DNA from: Parafilimonas sp.
GTDB taxonomy: Bacteria; Bacteroidota; Bacteroidia; Chitinophagales; Chitinophagaceae
Assembly (NCBI GenBank): GCA_023251275.1
Contig: JAHEZC010000023.1
Coordinates: 1-11,961, forward strand
Direction: 5' to 3'
DNA: 11,961 bases
Shown here: positions 1-4,717 of the stretch, piece by piece
Position numbering within the stretch: the stretch's first letter is position 1
Layout: the number at the start of each line of letters is the position of its first letter
Made by a program: the position numbers and the translations under genes
Notes under the pieces: model-generated
Told to the model about the DNA's origin: nothing
Database searches by the model: none
The model's input: the letters and a program-made list of their open reading frames with translations, nothing else

Positions 1-20
1 TTATTATTGTTTGTCTCCAT
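1..20 (-). CDS. 5' end of a second four-helix-bundle suffix gene (partial)
   Basis: Read on the minus strand, these bases give ATG followed by codons for E-T-N-N-N, the same six N-terminal residues as the complete four-helix-bundle gene that starts at 793. The match is part of a 220-bp direct repeat with a 773-nt offset, so the rest of the gene is expected beyond position 1. Only about six codons are visible. Whether the second copy is intact cannot be judged here. Confidence 0.5.
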
Positions 21-41
21 TTATTTCTTCAATTCTTTTGT

Positions 42-89
42 GGGACTTTTGTGACACCTGCGACGTGTCGCACCAGTCGCACCTGTCCC
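42..89. repeat. REP-like palindromic element, copy A
   Basis: A GC-rich block stands out in an AT-rich setting. The outer arms GGGAC and GTCCC are inverted, and an inner arm TGCGAC with 2-nt loop faces GTCGCA; a further GTCGCACC-like half repeat lies next to it. It sits between an hsdR-tail remnant and the start of a 4HB gene on the minus strand. It could be a REP-type element, a transcript-stabilising hairpin or an attenuator; it lacks a directly adjacent T-run that would make it a clear terminator. The same element recurs at 815-862. Confidence 0.6.
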
Positions 90-101
90 TAAATTTTTAA
101 A

Positions 102-217
102 CTACGCAACCAGCTCTTCACTTAGTTCATTAATGATTTTATCAGTATCGTCACCAGACAACTGCTGCATTTTTCCCAATCTTTTGGTAACCCATTTATA
201 TTTTGTTCTTCAATCAT
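102..217 (-). pseudogene. Chimeric remnant A: hsdS start joined to hsdR end
   Basis: On the minus strand an ATG at 217 begins M-I-E-E-Q-N-I-N-G-L-P-K-D-W, which resembles the usual N-terminus of HsdS specificity subunits (…LPxGW…). It lies 3 nt after the 4HB stop codon (TAA-GCA-ATG). After the W codon the sequence switches to the 3' end of an hsdR gene: 102-179 aligns without gaps to the true hsdR end at 1919-1996, about 67 of 78 bases by eye, in another frame, and ends at TAG (102-104). The hsdS frame stops at 122. At the switch both parents can share TTGGGAAA. The differences from hsdR are all transitions and many are silent in the hsdR frame, suggesting descent from another hsdR allele rather than decay of this one. 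Confidence 0.75.
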
Positions 218-220
218 TGC

Positions 221-793
221 TTAATTTCTATTTCGTTTTTCTATTCTAACTCTTGTCATTCTTTCCCTCAATCCTCCCTCGTTAATAAATGCCTTTTCCA
301 AAGATTTTATTTGCTGGCTTAAGAGGTGAGTCACAATTTTTATCAGGCAAATCATTGAGTTGGCACAAATTTCCTGCTCCGGATTTTCAATAGCTTTAAT
401 ATAGGTTTGGTAAGTGGCGTTGGGGGTTCTGTTCAGCTCACGAAATCGCATCGTAAAGCGGTGGTCTTTTTCCCAGAGTTTTAATTTGTTGGTTCTCAAA
501 AAATCCTGGTAGTCAATCAGCAATTCCTCCAGGCTTGCCCGTGCCACATTGGTAAGCTTAATTTCCGTCTCCTTAGAAGTGGCTGAGGCCATGCTTGCTT
601 CTGCAATATTTTGCTTGCCCGATCTTGCAGCCTGTACCATTTGATCAATGGTGCGGTCATATTTTTGAAAAAACCTTTTTGTAAAATAAACCGTCCCATC
701 ATAAATAATTTCTGCTTTCTGGTAGGTTATCAGGTTTCGGTAACCGCCATGCACCGGTATAAAGCCTTCGTTTTTATTATTGTTTGTCTCCAT
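221..793 (-). CDS. Four helix bundle suffix domain protein
   Basis: The 190-residue product has the S23/IVS-type four-helix-bundle core: LITYQKAEIIYD at about 21-32 and the typical DQMVQAARSGKQNIAEA at 50-66, followed by helical segments to about 170 and a basic tail. A C-terminal extension beyond the ~115-residue core fits the 'four helix bundle suffix' variant common in Bacteroidota. The molecular function of this family is not known; members are often encoded between type I restriction genes. Here the gene is preceded and followed by hsdR-tail remnants, and its stop codon is 3 nt from an hsdS-like start, implying it once sat directly upstream of hsdS. The ATG at 793 is supported because the repeat preserves it at position 20. 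A soluble oligomeric helical protein is expected; a role in the restriction complex is only inference. Confidence 0.85.
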   Translation of the reverse strand: METNNNKNEGFIPVHGGYRNLITYQKAEIIYDGTVYFTKRFFQKYDRTIDQMVQAARSGKQNIAEASMASATSKETEIKLTNVARASLEELLIDYQDFLRTNKLKLWEKDHRFTMRFRELNRTPNATYQTYIKAIENPEQEICANSMICLIKIVTHLLSQQIKSLEKAFINEGGLRERMTRVRIEKRNRN

Positions 794-814
794 TTATTTC
801 TTCAATTCTTTTGT

Positions 815-862
815 GGGACTTTTGTGACACCTGCGACGTGTCGCACCAGTCGCACCTGTCCC
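815..862. repeat. REP-like palindromic element, copy B
   Basis: Second copy of the element at 42-89, with the same inverted GGGAC/GTCCC outer arms and TGCGAC/GTCGCA inner arms. It lies between the hsdR-tail remnant (stop at 875-877) and the 4HB start at 793. The two copies are identical by eye, in contrast to the flanking hsdR-tail segments, which differ at several positions. Confidence 0.6.
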
Positions 863-874
863 TAAATTTTTAAA

Positions 875-990
875 CTACGCAACCAGCTCTTCATTTAGTT
901 CATTAATAACTTTATCGGTATCGTCACCAAACAACTGCCACATTTCATCCAATCTTTTGGTAGCCCATTTATATTTTGCTCTTCATTCAT
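875..990 (-). pseudogene. Chimeric remnant B: hsdS start joined to hsdR end
   Basis: On the minus strand an ATG at 990 begins M-N-E-E-Q-N-I-N-G-L-P-K-D-W, again like an HsdS N-terminus, and then runs out of frame into an hsdR 3' end. The hsdR-frame reading gives MWQLFGDDTDKVINELNEEL and stops at TAG (875-877); the hsdS frame stops at 895. The segment 875-952 matches the true hsdR end in about 69 of 78 bases by eye. Most base changes are silent in the hsdR frame. Unlike remnant A, it follows the DinD gene rather than a 4HB gene. Confidence 0.75.
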
Positions 991-1066: not shown

Positions 1067-1909
1067 TTAATTCCCTTTCTTTTTATTGCCCTTGATAATT
1101 TTCTTATCCTCGCTTTCTATTCTTCGTGTAACTTTCTTTAAGTCTTCAGCAGGCGGCAAAGCTTCAGGTTGAACACCTCTTTCCTTAAGCATTTTGCGCA
1201 CTGCAAGATTATTTTCAATATGCTCATTCGAAATAGGTGCTTCTCCTTTTAAATCCTTCTCAATAACATTATGGCTCGTTAACTCATTGGCAAAATCTTT
1301 TGCCTTAATAGTAAGTGTAGGTAAAAAATCGGCTAAAGGTCTCACAGAAGAAACGCCCAGTTTTCTTTTCATATCGCCGGTAGAAAACCCTCCGAACAAA
1401 GCCTGGTCGCCTTTGGATTTTATGATGGCAAAACCTGCACTATCAACGCCTCTTTCATATAAAACTCCTGAAAGTTTTTTCTCACTTTTTGTTAGTTTTT
1501 CTCTTGCGGATACCCTTGCAATGTCCAGCAGGCGCTGTTCGATAATTTCCTGTTTCCTTGTCTGTACGGCAAAATAAGTTTGGGCAAATGCTACAGATTG
1601 TTTTGAAGGATCACCGTTTTGGGCAACAATATAACAGGCATAACGCGTTAATGCAATATCTTCAAGTTCCCTTTGAGCCCCGCTGCCTAACTCCACCATT
1701 TTGTTGACGTCAACGAAATGGTCAGAAAGCTTTTCTCCAGCATTTATACACGCATCTTTTGCTTTATCTATAACTTTTAAAAAATTGCGCCAATCAGTGT
1801 AGGAAAATATTTCTTGCAATTCCCTTGCACTCCAGCATTCAATGCCTTTATAATCGTACGCTGCCAGTTCAAATTGCAAGAACAATTCTGCTATTAATTC
1901 TTTTTTCAT
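1067..1909 (-). CDS. dinD: DNA damage-inducible protein D (DinD) family
   Basis: The 280-residue product matches the DinD family over its length (E. coli DinD is about 275 residues). Visible landmarks are WSARELQEIFSYTDWRNF at 26-43, HFVDVNKMVELGSGAQREL at 64-82, LTRYACYIVAQNGDP at 87-101 and FAQTYFAVQTRKQE at 108-121, then a charged C-terminal half ending in a lysine-rich tail. E. coli DinD is SOS-induced and inhibits RecA filament activities; whether this homologue does so is untested. The ATG at 1909 lies 9 nt after the hsdR stop, so the gene is probably co-transcribed with hsdR rather than controlled by its own LexA box, and none was seen. Downstream, 994-1066 shows no gene and leads into the hsdS-head/hsdR-tail remnant. 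Confidence 0.85.
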   Translation of the reverse strand: MKKELIAELFLQFELAAYDYKGIECWSARELQEIFSYTDWRNFLKVIDKAKDACINAGEKLSDHFVDVNKMVELGSGAQRELEDIALTRYACYIVAQNGDPSKQSVAFAQTYFAVQTRKQEIIEQRLLDIARVSAREKLTKSEKKLSGVLYERGVDSAGFAIIKSKGDQALFGGFSTGDMKRKLGVSSVRPLADFLPTLTIKAKDFANELTSHNVIEKDLKGEAPISNEHIENNLAVRKMLKERGVQPEALPPAEDLKKVTRRIESEDKKIIKGNKKKGN

Positions 1910-1918
1910 AAATACATT

Positions 1919-4717
1919 TTATGCAACCAGTTCTTCATTTAGTTCATTAATAATTTTATCGGTATCGTCACCAAATAACTGCCACATCTTTCCCAAACCG
2001 CCAACTGCATTAAACGGGTTGAGTTCAAAATCATCCCTCTCAATATGAAAGCTGGTGGCAATATAATCTTTTATCATGCGCAGCCATTGCATCTGTTCAT
2101 CAGTAAACCGGTTGTGCTGCCCGGCATTCTGCTTTAATATCCACTGTTGAAAATTCTTGTCAACCGTTTTATCATACACCGTAAGCTGTTTATCAATGCC
2201 GGTTATATTGCGTATTAAAGAAACCAGCGCCACGAGTTCATTTTTCGGGGAACCGTTGGCAGCAGACAGGTGTTCATAAGCCCGCCATATATTGAGCGGC
2301 GCCAGTAAAGGCTTTTCTGTTTTAAGCGTGGTGAGCAGGTCTTTGAGCATGGAATAAGTAAGCTGTCTGCGGCGGTAAGGCTGGTCATAAAACAACTGCA
2401 AAGCGGTTATCTCATCTTTATGCGTTTCTATCCATTGCTTAAAATTATTTACGAGCTCGTTGCTTTTATTGGTAAGGTCAGCATCCCACCCAACATTCAG
2501 TAATGAATCGGGGCTAATCACATCCATTAGCTGTTCATGCGCTTTGCGTACATTTTCAATATAGGTGTTTAGTTCACCGGTGAAAGGTGCGGCGGCAGAT
2601 TCGATTAATCGTGAGTGATGAGCCGTGAATGATGAATGGATTTCTTCCGGTGATGCATCTGGCTTTTCGCTTTCAACCTTATGCCTTAAGCCTTCCATCG
2701 TATCCGGGTCATAAGCATTCAGCAAAGCTTTGGCAATATCGCTGAATGTTTTGCCATTTGTTTTCTCTGTGAAGACGGCTTTCTCTTTATCGGTCAGTTG
2801 CTTTTCGAGCCTTGTTAAACGGTTGGCCAGCGAAGTAAACAATTCTTCATCTCTTGCACCAACAGCCACAGCGCCAAGCAAATTCTTTAAAGGGATGCCC
2901 GGCTTTTTTTCCAATGGCCTGCTATCTGTTTTTAAAGATTGGGTGATACCGATGGCATCTACAATTACAAAATGGTCTTTCACCTGTTTTGCATTGGGCG
3001 ATACTTTTTTTAAATCATCTAAAGAAATGGTACGTGTGCCCCTGCCTTTCATCTGTTCAAAATAATTCCTGCTTTTTACATCCCGCATAAACAGCAAACA
3101 TTCCAACGGCTTTACATCGGTGCCTGTGGCGATCATATCTACGGTAACGGCAATGCGCGGATAATACTCATTCCTGAAATTCTGCAAGGTGCCTTTTGCA
3201 TCATCAACGCTGTATGTAATTTTTTTACAGAACTTATTTTCTTCTGCAAACTCTTCCCGAACTATTTGAATGATGTCGTCTGCATGACTGTCATTTTTTG
3301 CGAAGATGAGGGTTTTGGGAGTTTCGAAGTCCGCCTCACCCTGACCCTCTCCACGAGGAGAGGGAAGAAGAAAGCGATCAGGAAACATTTCGGGTAAATG
3401 TTCTTTAAATGTTTTTATGATAAGCCTTATCTGGTTTGGGTTTACTACTTCATTGTCCAGCTTCTTATTCGTGTAGGCATAATCATCATCTAATTGCTGC
3501 CAGCGTTTTTTACGACTCAGCTTTTCACGATGGTCAACATATTCGCCTTTCCATATAACGCCGCCTTGTTTGCTTACCTGTGTTTCTATCATATATACAT
3601 CATAGCCTACATTCACACCATCGAGTACTGCCTGTTCATGCGCGTATTCGCTTACTACATTGCTATTGAAGAAACCAAACGTTCTGTTATCGGGAGTAGC
3701 CGTTAAGCCAATCAGGAAAGCATCAAAATAATCGAGCACTTGTTTCCATAAGTTATAAATACTTCGGTGGCATTCATCAATTACGATAAAATCAAAATAT
3801 TCAATGGGCAGCTTTGCATTGTAAGCAACAGGTATCGGTTCTTTAGGCTGCCATCTTTCATTGGGATTTTCTTCTTCAGCAGTTTCATCCAGTTCTTCAC
3901 CTTTTAAAATAGAATACAATCTTTGAATCGTGCTGATATAAACCTGATTGCCCGGCGGAACGTAAGAAGATTTTAAACGCTGTATATTATACAGTTCAAT
4001 AAACTTGCGGTTATCGTCATTGGGCAGGTAAGCCATGAACTCCTGCTCTGCCTGTTCGCCCAGGTTTTTTGTATCTACCAAAAACAAAATTCTTTGTGCG
4101 CCTGCATATTTAAGTAAGCGATAAATAGATGTAATGGCAGTAAAAGTTTTACCCGAACCCGTTGCCATTTGTATCAAGGCTTTTGGTTTGGCTTTTTTAA
4201 ATGATCTTTCAAGATTGTTGATAGCTGTTATTTGACAATCTCTCAAATGCTCCGTTGGTAAAGCAGGAAGGTTGTGTAGTCTTTTACGAAGCGAATCATC
4301 ATATCTCATCCATTCCATAAATGTTTCAGGGCGATGAAAGCTGAAAACTTCTCTTGAACGTGGCTTAGGGTCGCGGTAATCTGTAAAGCGTGTTACTTCA
4401 CCGTTGCTTTCGTATAAGAATTCAAGCGGCTTAGTGTTTAAGTATTTAAGTTTTGCTTTTGCATAATCTTCTGTCTGGTCTTCGTGTGCCGTTAAATGTA
4501 AACCTTCTTCAGCACGTTTTGCTTCAATGACACCAACAGGTTTTTTATCAACAAATAAGATATAATCTGCAGGGCCAACATCAGTTTGATATTCCCTAAC
4601 GGCAATACCCGTGCCTGCCGCAAGATTGATGCTGGATTTGTATTGAATGATCCATCCGCAATCCCTGAGTTGTTTATCAATATTATCTCTTGCTATTTGT
4701 TCAGGGTTTTGATTCAT
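1919..4717 (-). CDS. hsdR: Type I restriction endonuclease subunit R
   Basis: The 932-residue motor and nuclease subunit of a type I restriction-modification enzyme: it translocates DNA with ATP and cleaves unmodified DNA together with HsdM and HsdS. The N-terminal PD-(D/E)xK nuclease shows D51 and E65-A-K67. The helicase has Walker A ATGSGKT (185-191), the DECH Walker B box (314-317), GLTATP (337-342) and a C-terminal helicase lobe with MIATGTDVKPLE and QMKGRGTRT (about 528-562). The rest fits the EcoEI-type C-terminal region that contacts the methylase. All catalytic motifs look intact. Residues about 448-466 are an unusual Pro/Gly-rich insertion encoded by a palindromic repeat. The 123-nt gap upstream (4718-4840) may hold its promoter; no convincing element was found. 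hsdM and hsdS are not in the window. Confidence 0.95.
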   Translation of the reverse strand: MNQNPEQIARDNIDKQLRDCGWIIQYKSSINLAAGTGIAVREYQTDVGPADYILFVDKKPVGVIEAKRAEEGLHLTAHEDQTEDYAKAKLKYLNTKPLEFLYESNGEVTRFTDYRDPKPRSREVFSFHRPETFMEWMRYDDSLRKRLHNLPALPTEHLRDCQITAINNLERSFKKAKPKALIQMATGSGKTFTAITSIYRLLKYAGAQRILFLVDTKNLGEQAEQEFMAYLPNDDNRKFIELYNIQRLKSSYVPPGNQVYISTIQRLYSILKGEELDETAEEENPNERWQPKEPIPVAYNAKLPIEYFDFIVIDECHRSIYNLWKQVLDYFDAFLIGLTATPDNRTFGFFNSNVVSEYAHEQAVLDGVNVGYDVYMIETQVSKQGGVIWKGEYVDHREKLSRKKRWQQLDDDYAYTNKKLDNEVVNPNQIRLIIKTFKEHLPEMFPDRFLLPSPRGEGQGEADFETPKTLIFAKNDSHADDIIQIVREEFAEENKFCKKITYSVDDAKGTLQNFRNEYYPRIAVTVDMIATGTDVKPLECLLFMRDVKSRNYFEQMKGRGTRTISLDDLKKVSPNAKQVKDHFVIVDAIGITQSLKTDSRPLEKKPGIPLKNLLGAVAVGARDEELFTSLANRLTRLEKQLTDKEKAVFTEKTNGKTFSDIAKALLNAYDPDTMEGLRHKVESEKPDASPEEIHSSFTAHHSRLIESAAAPFTGELNTYIENVRKAHEQLMDVISPDSLLNVGWDADLTNKSNELVNNFKQWIETHKDEITALQLFYDQPYRRRQLTYSMLKDLLTTLKTEKPLLAPLNIWRAYEHLSAANGSPKNELVALVSLIRNITGIDKQLTVYDKTVDKNFQQWILKQNAGQHNRFTDEQMQWLRMIKDYIATSFHIERDDFELNPFNAVGGLGKMWQLFGDDTDKIINELNEELVA
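3331..3370. repeat. Palindromic repeat inserted in frame in hsdR
   Basis: Within hsdR an 8-bp inverted repeat, CCCTCTCC (3345-3352) and GGAGAGGG (3357-3364), encloses the 4-nt loop ACGA and is preceded by CCTCACCCTGA. This layout is that of the dispersed 'CCTCACCC…CCCTCTCC' intergenic palindromes seen in many bacterial genomes. On the minus strand it encodes LLPSPRGEGQGEAD, a composition unlike the surrounding helicase. The ends of the insert are approximate, since they were judged from the composition break. Confidence 0.65.

Follow-up and report, generated by a model that had tools for sequence, protein, structure and literature searches.

The stretch of DNA analysed here (the window; 11,961 nucleotides) represents one entire contig, position 1 being the contig end, and belongs to an assembly which consists of 645 contigs and is 83% complete. 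On its minus strand the order is hsdR, dinD, scar 1, a palindrome, a four-helix-bundle (4HB) gene, scar 2, the palindrome again and the start of a second 4HB gene (Table 1). In each scar, an HsdS-like start runs out of frame into 78 nt copied from the 3' end of hsdR. Overall, positions 1-225 and 774-998 of the window are 94% identical.

Table 1. Features of the window's type I restriction locus, given in the order of the minus strand.
Feature	Positions	Strand	Basis
hsdR, type I restriction subunit, intact, 932 aa	1919..4717	-	Pfam EcoEI_R_C, ResIII and HSDR_N above cut-off
Final 78 nt of hsdR, present again as a copy in each scar	1919..1996	-	sequence match
dinD, first cargo, start 9 nt past the hsdR stop	1067..1909	-	NCBIfam NF008573, E 7e-105; PADLOC PDC-S13, E 4e-116
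Scar 1, HsdS-like head (MNEEQNINGLPKDW)	953..990	-	sequence; comparison with hsdS starts
Scar 1, hsdR tail copy, ends TAG	875..952	-	90% over 77 nt
GGGAC...GTCCC palindrome, separating scar 1 from the 4HB gene	815..862	-	sequence; DNA fold z -2.0, modest
4HB gene with suffix domain, second cargo	221..793	-	TIGR04258, E 1e-19, and TIGR02436 above cut-off; Pfam PF05635 below cut-off
Scar 2, HsdS-like head (MIEEQNINGLPKDW)	180..217	-	sequence; comparison with hsdS starts
Scar 2, hsdR tail copy, ends TAG	102..179	-	87% over 77 nt
Palindrome, second copy	42..89	-	window 1-120 = 774-893
Second 4HB reading frame, first 20 nt, cut by the contig end	1..20	-	sequence

Next to the intact hsdR, the type I components of this genome comprise the 3' half of an hsdM gene, which locates to the end of another contig (C43; L223:1255-1827) and shares 77% identity over 190 residues with HsdM of genome G054. 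This hsdM half is probably the other flank of the window's hsd locus, and the assembly seems to break on either side of hsdS, for which a profile search of the assembly returned no PF01420 match; a match on contig C154 was rejected as the genome's hsdS, since upon inspection it proved not to be hsdS. As to the first cargo, a further match of the DinD protein (1067-1909) is with a model of 717 positions that is named Type I specificity subunit and is covered in its first part, which hints that dinD-hsdS fusions exist elsewhere. Genes with the 4HB suffix domain (TIGR04258 in the window) occur at many unrelated sites in genomes of the same family (L024-L040), several of them being flanked by GGGAC...GTCCC palindromes, and the one at L085 is flanked by 29-nt inverted arms; these genes may be small mobile cassettes. 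The idea that the 4HB gene is tied to hsd loci was dropped, hsd-like neighbours being present only at L027 among the 17 loci inspected by eye.

The out-of-frame junctions described in the sequence-only reading are present in the window: scar 1 (990-875, minus strand) reads MNEEQNINGLPKDWMKCGSC... and scar 2 (217-102, minus strand) reads MIEEQNINGLPKDWEKCSSC..., with the hsdR tail lying in another frame in each case. The two tail copies match the hsdR end with E values of about 1e-24 and 1e-22 and are not a product of chance, the three aligned tail stretches being located at 103-179, 876-952 and 1920-1996. The HsdS-like nature of the heads was confirmed by comparison with genuine hsdS starts, whereby 13 of 14 residues of the scar 1 head and 12 of 14 of the scar 2 head are identical to the hsdS start of L020, and 12 and 11 of 14, respectively, to that of L130. 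A short sequence shared at the crossover, TTGGGAAA, had been proposed; it is intact in scar 2 and in hsdR but altered in scar 1, and the hsdS starts of L020 and L130 contain only TTGG or TGG of it, which is why homology at the crossover has to be regarded as short and unproved. Five differences to hsdR are common to both scars, all of them silent and at the third codon position, and four further differences are found in scar 1 alone and six in scar 2 alone. The assertion that the tails differ mostly silently thus holds for the common differences but not for the 10 positions at which the scars differ from each other, of which 3 are silent and 7 non-silent. The common silent differences fit another or an older hsdR allele, although the functional hsdR may itself have acquired them; as proof of source alleles, for which they had been taken, they are insufficient alone, and better evidence comes from two other loci (L138 and L213, see below).

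The junction position is identical in both scars, and since this junction and the five differences are common to them, the scars probably result from one joining event followed by duplication of the head/tail/4HB unit and subsequent drift, instead of two separate stackings of modules as initially envisaged. Two successive modules with a 4HB gene had been counted, of which one contains a full 4HB gene but the other only the 20 nt at the contig end; owing to this truncation, to the contig end and to the exact repeat of 774-893, the cargo of the third module is not established and, like the intact hsdS, lies past the contig end. The same repeat, comprising the 120 nt of the contig end, is in line with the array being an artefact of assembly or a strain mixture in a fragmented genome, and the number of contigs, the incompleteness of the assembly, the failure to find hsdS and the presence of hsdM merely as a 3' half elsewhere fit this explanation. 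However, 10 tail positions are not the same in scars 1 and 2, the former scar lies in the interior of the contig and like scars exist in other assemblies, and an artefact is hence considered highly improbable.

Recurrence of the scars was analysed by a survey of hsdR loci, which was chosen because a search for the scar pattern itself (an LPKDW head of HsdS close to an MWQLF tail of hsdR), giving 0 matches in genome contigs, is narrow and requires the head. Relatives of hsdR were sought in 99 relatives, 396 genomes of the order and 394 genomes of the phylum (overlapping sets) and were identified in 7, 33 and 34 of these, respectively, the own genome included; further sources were 80 named contigs and the matches obtained at DNA level in 394 genomes belonging to the family. 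The genomes searched contained no close relative of the window, its nearest hsdR relatives in the own-family searches being about 70% identical. The sequence behind hsdR was taken from 71 regions and the 80 contigs, the latter being the best 80 of at least 574 confirmed loci and as such not a random sample. The resulting 151 hsdR loci, window included, were reduced to 126 by dropping four near-duplicates (L104, L145, L195, L207) and 21 others in which the end was incomplete, hsdR too short or the downstream sequence below 600 nt. In L112, no hsdR was usable. Among the 126 loci, hsdS follows hsdR directly in 45 (in 37 of them overlapping the hsdR stop or starting within 4 nt of it), a gap of more than 150 nt separates both genes in 71, and hsdS lies outside the retrieved sequence in 10, whereby the gap rule is a loose one as a few gaps of 153-241 nt are without a clear gene.

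An extra hsdR tail on the same strand behind an intact hsdR was identified in 16 of the 126 non-redundant loci, window included, namely in 14 of the 71 with a gap, in 2 of the 10 with hsdS outside the sequence and in none of the 45 with hsdS directly behind hsdR. Within hsdR the scars are specific to the tail: as controls, the hsdR tail was found on the other strand in 1 of 126 loci, and two internal 200-nt stretches of hsdR yielded matches in 3 of 252 cases for the same strand and in 1 of 252 for the other. Such segments are hence not unique to the window's genome, uniqueness being one of the findings by which the sequence-only reading would have been refuted. Not every one of the 16 loci represents an event of its own, since L162 and L205 seemingly possess the same scar and L211 and L212 belong to one genus and have similar scars, so that independent events perhaps number about 14. 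Their named hosts, which derive from the best 80 of at least 574 loci, belong to Bacteroidota, Chlorobiaceae, KSB1, ANME-2 and Methanosarcina. L149, L154 and L158 gave weak matches which failed the final rule and were not counted as tail-copy loci; the first copy of L128 (32 nt) and a 21-nt copy of L194 likewise lie above the final cut-off, the former being part of the list of 19 copies considered below and the latter not. Downstream of hsdR in L191, short stretches of an internal hsdR segment match several places on both strands, for which palindromic repeats are suspected. In an earlier round with 103 loci, hsdM tails gave 1 of 65; for hsdS tails, a further copy behind hsdS was present on the same strand in 9 of 89 loci and on the opposite strand in 1 of 89. 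Since hsdS tails recur in this way, the hsdS end rearranges, too, and displacement is perhaps not special to hsdR. Such copies of the hsdS 3' end, seen at L019, L021, L091, L121, L124, L166 and others, may represent partial hsdS genes or a second type of scar.

The cargo differs between loci. Relatives of GajA and GajB (Gabija-like) were identified in L095, SLFN_AlbA_2 in L138, YhcG in L191, ParE in L205, an ABC-3C pair in L202, DUF559 in L211 and, in L128, a DUF5131 gene (here named tcmP) with a PADLOC PDC-M41A partner; two proteins of L213 gave no Pfam match. DUF5131 was found in 22 hsdR-hsdS gaps (duplicates included; e.g., L128, L117, L148) and in none of the positions behind hsdS and is, by this distribution, a slot-specific partner of type I loci. 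Recurrence with differing cargo, which the initial reading named as support for a platform, culminates in L194, where three tail copies (one of them weak) alternate with different genes, a Y1 transposase, a PDDEXK_3 gene and an OLD-like ATPase being located between and after them; the first of these copies is interrupted by a short palindromic insert. The view of a platform collecting accessory genes is thus upheld in so far as varied genes occupy the hsdR-hsdS boundary (71 of 126 loci by the loose gap rule), but the hsdS head is not its recurrent mark. While tails recur, a joined HsdS-like head, for which related genomes were to be searched, was seen only in the window and in L174, where the head runs in frame into the tail, and the head was dropped as a general mark. 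As heads are joined in these two cases, the donor piece appears to have sometimes reached into its own hsdS. In L085, which belongs to a different family of the order, hsdR and hsdS are separated by a 4HB gene, behind which a broken hsdS-like start without a tail is found, this stretch containing two N.

A mobile element, e.g., a Y1 (REP-type) transposase acting on palindromes, which targets and restores the hsdR end, might be thought to have assembled these arrays, as Y1-like transposases are present in L194 and, with weak matches below cut-off, in L166 and L174, Y1 relatives were found in 6 hsdR-hsdS gaps (two queries), and palindromes adjoin 4HB genes both in the window and at other sites. 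However, the tail copies start at many points, 27-198 nt before the hsdR stop, and extend to the stop or to within a few bases of it, hence the far-side joins are variable and the fixed crossover point in the target that is a feature of site-specific integration into a gene 3' end, of the genomic-island or integron-like kind, is absent. Moreover, in the families scanned the other cargo is without transposase or integrase: none of 20 Pfam-scanned proteins (some of which are not cargo) is an integrase, and Y1-like transposases are confined to the three loci named. A mobile element is therefore deemed very unlikely.

In 7 of the 19 scar copies the start of the next gene overlaps the copy's stop codon (in L166 it is 1 nt away), and the displaced tail is thus still attached to a gene that probably followed hsdR in former times, the old junction having been kept. 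In L138 both joints overlap, i.e., that of the intact hsdR with the cargo and that of the displaced tail with hsdS. Within the Chlorobiaceae, the states before and after displacement can be compared: in L195 and L198 it is hsdR itself that tcmP overlaps, in L162 and L205 the displaced tail, and in these latter two loci other genes lie between hsdR and the displaced tail. Together with the 7 overlaps, this pair documents that older genes are kept and shifted back, which is a feature of displacement. Because a piece resembling the hsdR 5' end (E 3e-10) lies just upstream in L162, a whole older hsdR is suggested to have once stood there.

The origin of the tails was approached by comparing alleles. 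The displaced tail of L138 is identical to the hsdR tail of L145 at 87 of 100 positions and to its own hsdR at 74 of 100, and the HsdM proteins of both loci share 95.6% identity. Their HsdR proteins are 87-100% identical over residues of about 150-660 but 35-38% near 780-870, a region in which L145 and L124 share 82-90%; the first ~180 residues of L138 HsdR are lower, too (67-82%), the protein thus being reshaped at both ends. Given the drop in identity near 780-870 and the L145-like tail, the L138 hsdR is by sequence comparison a chimera and its displaced tail is of the older type. Likewise, the displaced tail of L213 agrees with L214 at 72 of 87 positions and with its own hsdR at 62 of 87, and its HsdM is nearest to that of L214 (89.5%). 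A chimeric anchor gene, as homologous exchange on the anchor side would leave it, is hence seen in L138 and is not clear in L213. L145 and L022 HsdR are 92-98% identical over the last ~180 residues and 35-92% over the rest, which points to an exchange of hsdR ends between lineages.

These data bear on the explanation that cargo entered at the hsdR end and that the local tail was copied, either by insertion with long target duplication or by microhomology tandem duplication, and that the copies then diverged. Two copies of the same local target would be expected in this case; in 8 of the 17 compared copies, both window scars included, the nearest tail is that of their own hsdR or is tied with its duplicate. 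Scar 2 of the window moreover resembles a duplicate of scar 1, and insertions of this kind have been reported for restriction-modification genes of H. pylori (Nobusato et al. 2000, as described in the available part of PMC1643837). The remaining 9 copies are nearer to the tail of another genome, by at least 10 points only in L138 and L213; for copies other than these two, local duplication is accordingly a possible origin. In L138 and L213, however, the tails correspond to another allele, and L138 hsdR is chimeric in addition. Differing cargo and HsdS heads require a second source, and silent differences exceed non-silent ones by 6 to 0 in L095 and by 7 to 2 in L174 (a count without the L213 row, which is out of frame), an excess over the prediction of drift which a functional hsdR changing silently would explain in part. 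Local copying as the general cause of the scars is consequently regarded as rather unlikely.

Taken together, it is suggested that the scars are resident hsdR 3' ends that were displaced by an incoming hsdR end together with its cargo, a reading which we consider moderately probable and for which we infer the route of recombination and the donor, and for the window also the succession of events. The suggested mechanism assumes that DNA from another type I locus, consisting of the 3' part of hsdR and the adjoining cargo, enters the cell and recombines by homology on one side into the resident hsdR, thereby replacing its end, whereas the far side would be closed by an illegitimate join within the terminal 27-198 nt of the resident gene. 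The product would be an intact, sometimes chimeric hsdR followed by the new cargo, the old tail and the former follower, i.e., hsdS or older cargo, whereby hsdS would remain that of the resident and the cargo would come to lie between hsdR and hsdS. As each event adds cargo adjoining hsdR, the array would be polarised. For the window, a donor piece comprising an hsdR end, dinD and the first codons of the donor's hsdS would have entered a resident hsdR-4HB-hsdS locus, and the head/tail/4HB unit would have been duplicated later, plausibly between two hsdS heads; an hsdR-dinD-hsdS donor locus was not found, dinD being absent from all other loci searched. Remnants longer than about 200 nt are absent, as judged with a 200-nt tail query, two further upstream 200-nt segments giving few matches, which may reflect selection for the translation start of the next gene and loss of the rest.

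As a tentative generalization, which is conceivable though short of probable, the hsdR 3' end may generally serve, without an integrase, as a docking point where defence genes accumulate one by one in bacterial and archaeal type I loci, the newest adjoining hsdR. The leftover tails would then record the order of arrival, keep the translation start of the next gene and provide direct repeats through which single modules could later be lost or exchanged. Defence genes are found in clusters, yet one can rarely see how they enter a functioning restriction operon and leave it unbroken. As a sequence mark of single insertion events, tail scars make the order of gene gain readable and the route testable, and genes between hsdR and a displaced hsdR tail become candidate defence genes. 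In the literature searched, mostly without subscription papers, no description of hsdR-tail scars was found; the class of mechanism and the slot are already known, the recurrent hsdR-tail mark being what was not found described.

With regard to the slot, the type I locus of C. jejuni is reportedly the subject of a paper by Miller et al. (2005). According to the available portions of the respective reports, rloA and rloB lie between hsdR and hsdS in C. jejuni (PMC2928727), and the same holds true for tgvAB in V. cholerae and for rloF (PMC11411939). These embedded genes resemble the cargo described here in occupying the same slot with defence genes or genes of unknown function; in contrast to the loci described here, the said portions of both reports make no mention of hsdR-tail scars for the genes of C. 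jejuni and V. cholerae. Translational coupling of neighbouring hsd genes has a precedent in EcoKI, whose overlapping hsdM and hsdS are coupled according to the part of PMC3510504 at hand. The H. pylori insertions are comparable, as far as the cited part describes them, in that the inserted genes lie between direct copies of the target and are tied to restriction genes, but in the loci described here the hsdR end itself serves as target, and the two copies in L138 and L213 derive from different alleles. Homology-facilitated illegitimate recombination has been described, in the accessible text of PMC3240628, in three competent species and, with low frequency, in E. coli upon conjugation, and was proposed together with sequential displacement for the T6SS immunity-gene arrays of V. 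cholerae (PMC5361080, available part). Going by that text, both kinds of array have a conserved upstream anchor to which the new module adjoins, older genes being shifted back together with the 3' end of a gene, and both were built by repeated events of the same polarity. Unlike in the T6SS arrays, whose anchor precedes toxin effector genes in the account given there, the anchor of the loci described here is hsdR, their cargo is mixed and defence-like, and the function of hsdS and hsdM behind the hsdR array is presumably kept.
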